Below are positions 2,895 through 4,088 of a DNA stretch of 37,781 nt, one piece after another. How positions within the stretch are numbered: position 1 is the stretch's first letter; every line of letters starts with the position of its first letter. A program made the translations under genes and the position numbers. This DNA comes from a virus. The notes beneath the pieces were generated by a model. That model was given only the letters and a program-made list of their open reading frames with translations. It had not been told where the DNA came from and did no database searches. The DNA lies in the IMG/VR virus record IMGVR_UViG_3300029309_000114, positions 1 to 37,781 of that record. The stretch is one strand, 5' to 3'.

Positions 2895-3396
2895 CCTAAA
2901 TAAAGTCGCGGATGATAGTGACATTGCAGTCAAGGGTGGTGGAAGCTTCAACGCTCAATACATTCCCTGGGCAAAAACATTATCATCCATAAGAGAAAAA
3001 GCACCGGGATGGATGCCCACAATGGTGGAAGATAAAGATGGCAATCTGATATATGATGCCCCGGATGGGACATGTTTTCTGATGATCAGATTCGTCCATG
3101 AGGATGGAACGGAAACTACCGCCATACCTCATGCGATCATGTCCAACAATATGAAATCCATGAAGCGTGATCTGATCAGTTCCAGGGACATTTCAGATTC
3201 CTTTGTTCGAGGGGCGTGTAAGTGCGCTAGTGCCGTTTTCGGATACGCTTGGCAGTTGTGGTCAAAGGATGACCCGATGAGCCGGGAAGAAGATGAACCG
3301 GAGGAAAAAAAGCCGGAAGTGAAAGTGAGTGCAAAAGCTGAAAAGGAATCACCCAAGGTGGATGACTTGCAAGCGCAACTAGAGGCATTGAAATGA
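2881..3396 (+). CDS. Single-strand annealing protein, Sak3/DUF1071-like
   Basis: Encodes 171 residues. The N-terminal segment with Y-I-P-W-A-K (Tyr27-Lys32), the middle beta strands (F-L-M-I-R-F), the Pro-His-Ala-Ile-Met loop and the R-G-A-C-K-x-A-x-x-x-F-G-Y-A helix match the DUF1071 (Sak3-type) family of phage recombinases, which anneal complementary single strands. The last ~45 residues are a charged, Lys/Glu-rich linker and short helix, a typical spacer for contacting SSB or a nuclease. The gene lies between a resolvase-like nuclease and an exonuclease and overlaps both neighbours. Family assignment is from motif pattern. Confidence 0.78.
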   Translation: MEIPNLNKVADDSDIAVKGGGSFNAQYIPWAKTLSSIREKAPGWMPTMVEDKDGNLIYDAPDGTCFLMIRFVHEDGTETTAIPHAIMSNNMKSMKRDLISSRDISDSFVRGACKCASAVFGYAWQLWSKDDPMSREEDEPEEKKPEVKVSAKAEKESPKVDDLQAQLEALK

Positions 3397-4088
3397 ATGT
3401 AGTCGGATGGAATATTTTCGGTTTTGATCTGCCTTACTTGTGCAATTCAAGCGTACGCTATGGCGTACAGATACCTTGGTATGTTAAGCCAACGATCAAG
3501 GGCGGTAGGATGTATCATGACCATTCGTTCGTGGATTTGATGCCTTTGTCAGTTGGTGGCAAGTTCCAGGATTTTAAGAGTCTCGAATCCTTTTGCAAAC
3601 AAACCGGTTTTCCCGGTGGAAAGGAATTCGGAAAGGGTAAGGACTTCTACAAGCTCGAACTACCCTTGAAGAAGGAGTACTTGGAGAACGATCTTAGGAT
3701 GACTAGACATGCCTACGACGCATTAAACAAGGCTTTGCAGTTCTCTGAAGAAGCAATGGCATTCGACTTGGAAACCGAGCCTATGTCGCTCGAAGAAATC
3801 GAAAGGATAAGTCCACCATTTGACCCGGCAAATGTAAAGACCGGCAACCTCAAAGATCCATTCAAGATCCAAGAGAAGATCGAACAGGCGGAAATGAACT
3901 ATCTTGAGAACCTCCAGGACAAAGCCGGACTTGATGCATACCTATCTAAACCGGTGGCTATTGGATACCATTGGGGAGACGAATACTTCGGGCATCATTC
4001 AGATGACCCGGTTGAAATACTGAACAAGTTTTGGGAATTGGCGGATACAGTCGCAACAAAATTTAGAGAAAGGAACACAGGCATATGA
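3393..4088 (+). CDS. DEDDy 3'-5' exonuclease with circularly permuted motif order
   Basis: Encodes 231 residues. All catalytic motifs of a DnaQ/polB-type DEDDy exonuclease are visible but in an unusual order: Exo II (WNIFGFD, Asp12), Exo III (YLEND, Tyr96 and Asp100), then Exo I (FDLETE, Asp125 and Glu127) and its usual following region (PPFDPANVKTGNLKDP, about 141-156). In ordinary homologues Exo I comes first. Here the present C-terminus, with K-F-W-E-L-A-D, is what normally leads into the present N-terminus V-V-G-W-N. The gene is intact and overlaps neighbours at both ends by 4 bases (ATGA), arguing against a simple frameshift. Role: probably trims DNA ends for the adjacent annealing protein, or proofreads for the host polymerase. 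Confidence 0.82.
   Translation: MNVVGWNIFGFDLPYLCNSSVRYGVQIPWYVKPTIKGGRMYHDHSFVDLMPLSVGGKFQDFKSLESFCKQTGFPGGKEFGKGKDFYKLELPLKKEYLENDLRMTRHAYDALNKALQFSEEAMAFDLETEPMSLEEIERISPPFDPANVKTGNLKDPFKIQEKIEQAEMNYLENLQDKAGLDAYLSKPVAIGYHWGDEYFGHHSDDPVEILNKFWELADTVATKFRERNTGI

Follow-up and report, generated by a model that had tools for sequence, protein, structure and literature searches.

A circularly permuted DEDDy exonuclease encoded in a recombination module of a temperate phage and its relatives

DEDD exonucleases act in DNA proofreading, RNA maturation, and the processing of recombination ends across all life, and the linear order of their motifs, Exo I-II-III, serves in their annotation and is regarded as a defining feature. 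The described proteins closest to the one analysed here belong to PF10108 (DNA_pol_B_exo2, a family of predicted 3′-5′ exonucleases akin to the PolB exonuclease domain) and include phage "DnaQ-like exonucleases" (phrog_403 and phrog_25228; e.g., QIG74544.1 of Rhizobium phage RHph_Y25). They have the same motifs, fall in the same size class, and often lie in the same kind of recombination/replication module, but their motifs follow the order I-II-III, whereas those of our protein follow the order II-III-I. The proofreading domains of family-B DNA polymerases (5mdn, 1tgo, and E. coli Pol II) have the same DEDDy active site; unlike them, our protein is both stand-alone and permuted. In the λ Exo/Red-β and RecE/RecT systems, as here, a nuclease gene lies beside the gene for a single-strand annealing protein (PMC7496540). 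Circular permutation as a phenomenon is already known, as is the exonuclease family itself. Permutations in enzymes of DNA metabolism include natural ones in phage DNA methyltransferases (PMC7824862) and that of PolC/DnaE (PMC3919608); the folds are different, and the PolC/DnaE permutation is between domains, whereas the one described here is inside the exonuclease core. Permutation goes unmentioned in an extensive survey of the RNase H-like superfamily (PMC3985635). Our search of the open-access literature turned up no permuted DEDD/DnaQ exonuclease, such absence being weak evidence, and a naturally rotated DEDD-type exonuclease does not seem to have been described before.

The stretch of DNA analysed (the window) is the 37,781-nucleotide virus record IMGVR_UViG_3300029309_000114. 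Its gene at positions 3393 to 4088 (plus strand) encodes a protein of 231 amino acids, referred to here as cpExo. The reading frame runs from ATG to TGA without internal stops, and each border is a 4-base ATGA overlap, with the stop of an annealing-protein gene at positions 3393 to 3396 and with the start of an SSB-like gene at positions 4085 to 4088. Exo II (WNIFGFD; residues 6 to 12, positions 3408 to 3428, catalytic D12) is followed by Exo III (YLEND; residues 96 to 100, positions 3678 to 3692, catalytic Y96 and D100) and then by Exo I (FDLETE; residues 124 to 129, positions 3762 to 3779, catalytic D125 and E127), all on the plus strand. The full DEDDy set is present (D.E of Exo I, D of Exo II, and Y...D of Exo III), and neither the Tyr nor any of the four acidic residues varies in any permuted or canonical alignment row that has letters there. 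The linear order is II, III, I instead of I, II, III, and we class cpExo as a circular permutant derived from the DEDDy family (DnaQ/polB type, RNase H-like clade F) rather than as an ordinary member. The ancestral C-terminal half now comes first (residues 1 to 118, positions 3393 to 3746, plus strand) and comprises the Exo II strand-helix, a central region, and the Exo III helix; the ancestral N-terminal half now comes second (residues 119 to 231, positions 3747 to 4085, plus strand) and comprises the Exo I strand, the PPFDPANVKTGNLKDP block, a helix, a hairpin, and a helix. The original prediction had placed the three motifs at exactly these residues, in a single intact gene with clean 4-base overlaps and with the four acidic residues and the Tyr kept, and all of this agrees with the translated frame and the alignment. 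It had also claimed that joining the C-terminus to the N-terminus restores the ordinary order, and had called for alignment after computational rotation, structure prediction, and a look for the same order in related phages.

We ran a profile of 20 ordinary-order relatives only against every rotation of cpExo. The native chain scored 68.2 bits and matched one half of the profile (positions 108 to 214), whereas chains rotated by 110 to 122 residues scored ~135 bits and matched positions 3 to 214 of 218, with an optimum at 117 N-terminal residues moved to the C-terminus. Joining the termini in this way thus regains a full-length match, as had been claimed. Rotation scans of two permuted relatives, L023 and L026, gave the same picture, and an ordinary-order control, itself a member of the profile, peaked at zero rotation. 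Half-profiles made from canonical-order proteins only matched cpExo in swapped order, the Exo I half at residues 122 to 219 (E = 3.7e-22) and the Exo II-III half at residues 3 to 112 (E = 2.5e-23), indicating that the motif order is not due to chance. The Exo I half was 43% identical to an ordinary-order relative (E = 6e-20 among the candidates). The Pfam model gave the same result: PF10108 matched residues 2 to 76 of the native chain at model positions 54 to 135 (E = 4.6e-6; 26.9 bits, with a cut-off of 24), the model start being missing at the native N-terminus, and it matched the chain rotated at residue 118 continuously across the join (positions 32 to 135; E = 8.1e-7). Similarly, the E value for phrog_25228 went from 0.0085 for the native chain to 1e-4 for the rotated one, over positions 45 to 201. 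We concluded that each half is complete, that the halves are swapped, and that a full-length match is obtained only after rotation.

The look at related phages was productive, in that the Exo II-III-I order is present in four other IMG/VR contigs. Three have full-length genes: IMGVR_UViG_3300048438_000106 (L023/L032), 3300046168_000030 (L024/L033), and 3300010150_004348 (L026/L034). In the fourth, 3300010300_000002 (L045+L025), the gene crosses contig ends that share 123 bases and was read from two pieces. The four proteins are about 34 to 38% identical to cpExo, and their reading frames are intact, with AAAGGAGG ribosome-binding sites before the true start. The terminase of the window phage is 69% identical in all four relatives, and the major head protein is 68 to 69% identical in the two long ones. 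By these similarities, the five contigs are a single phage lineage, represented by metagenome assemblies throughout, with no known isolate. We collected ~30 distinct ordinary-order loci from viral contigs and Verrucomicrobiota genomes. One of these, L013 (positions 4995 to 5642), was found by a scan with the Exo I half; it is 36% identical to rotated cpExo, and both proteins carry PPFDPANVK.GNL.DP. An extra PPFDPA.VK.GNL block after Exo I is common to cpExo and its near ordinary-order relatives in L013, L027, and L036. When half-profile order was read for all fetched loci, permuted matches occurred only in the five contigs, all other two-half matches were ordinary, and no I-II-I or II-I-II protein was found, including among the ~30 distinct ordinary-order loci.

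Wider searches with the permuted proteins gave the following results. A single-protein scan of viral contigs and a tblastn search of 50,697 phage records found no close relatives of the native window protein, and the L023 protein gave half matches only in those records. The L026 protein had no match among plasmids, a permuted-profile search of 388 Verrucomicrobiota genomes returned canonical-order matches or single halves only, and a scan with the permutation junction yielded no additional permuted contig. Long reading frames that matched the Exo II half only (L084 to L099), presumably polA-type polymerases, were set aside. We concluded that a temperate phage and four relatives encode a working-looking exonuclease with swapped halves.

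After rotation, the five permuted proteins formed one clade with support of 100/99, also when the join was trimmed. The Exo I half alone grouped them with support of 99/95; the Exo II-III half alone gave this grouping too, though its support (83/76) was not conclusive. Since the permuted proteins form one clade, a single event is the simplest history; whether that clade is nested among the ordinary-order proteins or sister to them depends on the rooting. Pairwise dN/dS among the four permuted relatives was 0.11 to 0.19, i.e., purifying selection, indicating that the permuted gene has been kept by selection. Duplication, fusion, and truncation make up the textbook route to circular permutation, with a tandem partial duplication as the expected intermediate (PMC3320104). 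In the simplest version for cpExo, an ordinary-order ancestor would have undergone a single rearrangement: its gene would have been duplicated in tandem, the copies fused, and the outer halves lost. A short linker would thereby have come to connect the former C-terminus with the former N-terminus, and the loop that precedes the Exo II strand would have supplied the new termini. In all five permuted genes the Exo I strand is immediately preceded by a Met (Met122 in cpExo), at a site occupied by Ile, Val, or Phe in ordinary relatives. This Met may be the relic start codon of a second tandem copy; a plain Ile-to-Met substitution is also possible.

AlphaFold2 folded cpExo with a pLDDT of 93 and a pTM of 0.86 when given an alignment in which permuted relatives were combined with halves of ordinary ones, an input that presumed which half corresponds to which; the single-sequence prediction (pLDDT, 37) was uninformative. 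In the model, a strand (residues 2 to 5), the Exo II helix (8 to 23), and the Exo III helix (90 to 115) are followed by a five-residue turn and then by the Exo I strand (121 to 130), a helix (156 to 178), a hairpin (185 to 202), and a helix (206 to 229), which is the ordinary order, rotated. The predicted linker (residues 116 to 120; positions 3738 to 3752, plus strand) connects the old C-terminal helix to the old first strand. Strand 1 and the C-terminal helix are antiparallel in DEDD exonucleases (PMC3985635), so the old ends would be near each other and a very short linker could close the chain. The single chain, whose structure the original prediction had proposed to model, would on this prediction adopt the usual exonuclease core, with D125, E127, D12, Y96, and D100 brought together, and the conserved residues suggest two-metal 3′-5′ hydrolysis.

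A Foldseek search of the PDB with the whole-chain model gave no significant full-length match, as expected for a permutant. Residues 1 to 119 align structurally with the Exo II-III part of family-B polymerase exonuclease domains (7rsu, 1tgo, and 3k59; Z, 5 to 6), spanning residues ~204 to 334 in the archaeal polymerases and 218 to 353 in E. coli Pol II, and a sequence profile matched the N-terminal half to residues 226 to 347 of 5mdn (E = 8.7e-6). The structure search also returned several unrelated Ham1/Maf folds (Z, 5 to 8), which we read as background. An RNase H-like fold is a putative assignment, made from the sequence profiles, the match of one half, and the confidence of the model. A search of NCBIfam with cpExo gave no match. 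Since a confidently modelled protein had no significant match in the PDB and none in NCBIfam, full-length linear profiles and sequential structure searches can miss permutants.

The window is a metagenome-type virus record and the gene is in no isolate, so an ordinary gene could in principle have been rearranged in silico during assembly or binning. We give this virtually no weight: the permuted order recurs in four further contigs, each under its own IMG/VR identifier, in proteins ~35 to 38% identical to that of the window, with intact frames, AAAGGAGG sites, and purifying selection, and an assembly rearrangement, which cannot explain five contigs, was rejected. It is also extremely unlikely that cpExo is of the ordinary kind and that an Exo I upstream or an Exo II downstream was overlooked, the C-terminal "Exo I" being a decoy or partial duplication. 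A tandem partial duplication is the intermediate expected on the way to a permutation (PMC3320104), but cpExo has one complete copy of each half, that of Exo I being matched nearly end to end, and half-profiles found no remnant of a further half within 1.5 kb upstream or downstream, in six frames, in the window or in L034; at these two loci we rejected this explanation. The Met before the Exo I strand, present in five of five permuted genes and absent at that column in ordinary relatives, would suit a gene with two products, a full chain and a separate Exo I half from Met122, with the active enzyme assembled from pieces. No conserved ribosome-binding site precedes Met122, however (relatives have GATAACTGG or GATGAATGG there versus AAAGGAGG at the true start), making this very unlikely.

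Two further explanations accept the permutation and differ in what the protein does. The permuted members are divergent (the window protein is 34 to 38% identical to the others), as they might be had catalysis been lost and the protein come to serve the recombination module in a structural or regulatory way; since permuted and canonical rows alike retain the Tyr and all four acidic residues, and dN/dS is low, we regard this as quite improbable. Domain swaps are common when a hinge is shortened, and the modelled linker between the halves has only about five residues. The Exo I half of one chain might hence complete the Exo II-III half of another in a swapped dimer. The single-chain model is confident throughout, however, and the reversed C-terminal helix of exonucleases brings the old ends together, so we consider a dimer unlikely, though deserving some weight. 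We consider it very likely that a single natural circular permutation turned a polB-like DEDDy exonuclease of the PF10108 neighbourhood into cpExo, which probably trims 3′ ends in phage recombination.

The genes around cpExo, all on the plus strand, encode a PDDEXK/Holliday-junction-resolvase-like protein (positions 2580 to 2894; PF24608, E = 8.8e-9; phrog_244, E = 4.5e-19), a Sak-type single-strand annealing protein, as originally predicted (2881 to 3396; PF06378, E = 1.5e-5; phrog_21418, E = 2.7e-40), a putative SSB (4085 to 4483), and, syntenic downstream, a DnaC-like helicase loader (an IstB/DnaA-type ATPase; 4966 to 5775). The putative SSB had no family match in profile searches that included Pfam and NCBIfam; it is called SSB-like from its context and its acidic C-terminal tip (...DLEEDVPF), and may belong to an unrecognised SSB family. 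A homologue lies directly downstream of the permuted gene in four of the four related contigs, and these proteins end in DP(D/E)L(E/D)EDVPF, with the EEDVPF tip invariant across relatives. The partner-binding tip of bacterial SSB is DDDIPF, which this tail resembles. Relatives readable on both sides have, in order, the PDDEXK gene, a gene for an ERF-type annealing protein (L033, 4035 to 4697; L034, 2356 to 3018; L045, 4049 to 4696), a gene for a DnaA-C-like protein of 99 to 100 amino acids, cpExo, and the SSB-like gene. ERF in these relatives versus Sak in the window, amid kept resolvase, exonuclease, and SSB-like genes, is a clean swap of the recombinase gene. The DnaA C-terminal-domain protein (PF08299, E = 5.6e-14) is encoded directly upstream of the permuted exonuclease (L034, 3015 to 3314; L033, 4694 to 4996; L045, 4693 to 4992); the window has no counterpart directly upstream of cpExo.

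A repeat-bearing gene (about 4494 to 5036) lies between the putative SSB and loader genes of the window. Within it, at positions 4610 to 4785 and just upstream of the loader gene, AGATATCTC-type repeats, both direct and inverted, are clustered ahead of an AT-rich stretch, and the arrangement is reminiscent of λ O, an initiator gene with an iteron origin inside it. In L034 the syntenic gene (4432 to 4995) carries different repeats of its own (GCGAAATGATATCATTCTGC). In L033 (3300046168_000030), the place next to the SSB-like gene that the repeat-bearing gene takes in other relatives is occupied by a cytosine-methyltransferase-like gene (6103 to 7044), downstream of the SSB-like gene.

Ordinary-order relatives are also often near genes for annealing, SSB-like, or resolvase proteins (L013, L020, L027, L028, L035, L037, and L040); a link between the window SSB-like family and the SSB-like gene beside ordinary-order relatives was not supported. 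Of the window reading frames scanned, none was recognised as a DNA polymerase gene, several large ones being without a family match. Given the module context of both orders and the lack of a recognised polymerase, recombination or end processing is a more likely role for cpExo than proofreading and, judging from its gene neighbours, it probably acts in recombination. λ Exo and RecE are unrelated 5′-3′ enzymes. Since cpExo belongs to a 3′-5′ superfamily, it would instead leave 5′ overhangs or trim 3′ ends. Alongside the annealing protein and the putative SSB, whose acidic tail might recruit it, cpExo would trim single-stranded 3′ ends or flaps, either ahead of annealing or after it. The type of annealing protein is not constant among permuted members, while the cpExo/SSB-like pair stays together. 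Should the permutation have altered docking to a neighbour, as the original prediction suggested it may have, this conserved pair would favour the SSB-like protein as the partner concerned. A more far-reaching proposal, which we consider speculative and rather unlikely, is that cpExo is the first natural permutant in the whole DEDD/DnaQ superfamily and was kept for a changed function, with new termini beside the Exo II strand that create or free a surface for the SSB-like or annealing protein, or that enforce an obligate swapped dimer.

With a natural permutant and its ordinary-order relatives both at hand, the effect of chain order on folding, activity, processivity, and partner binding becomes directly testable, making cpExo a clean natural experiment in how proteins fold and evolve.
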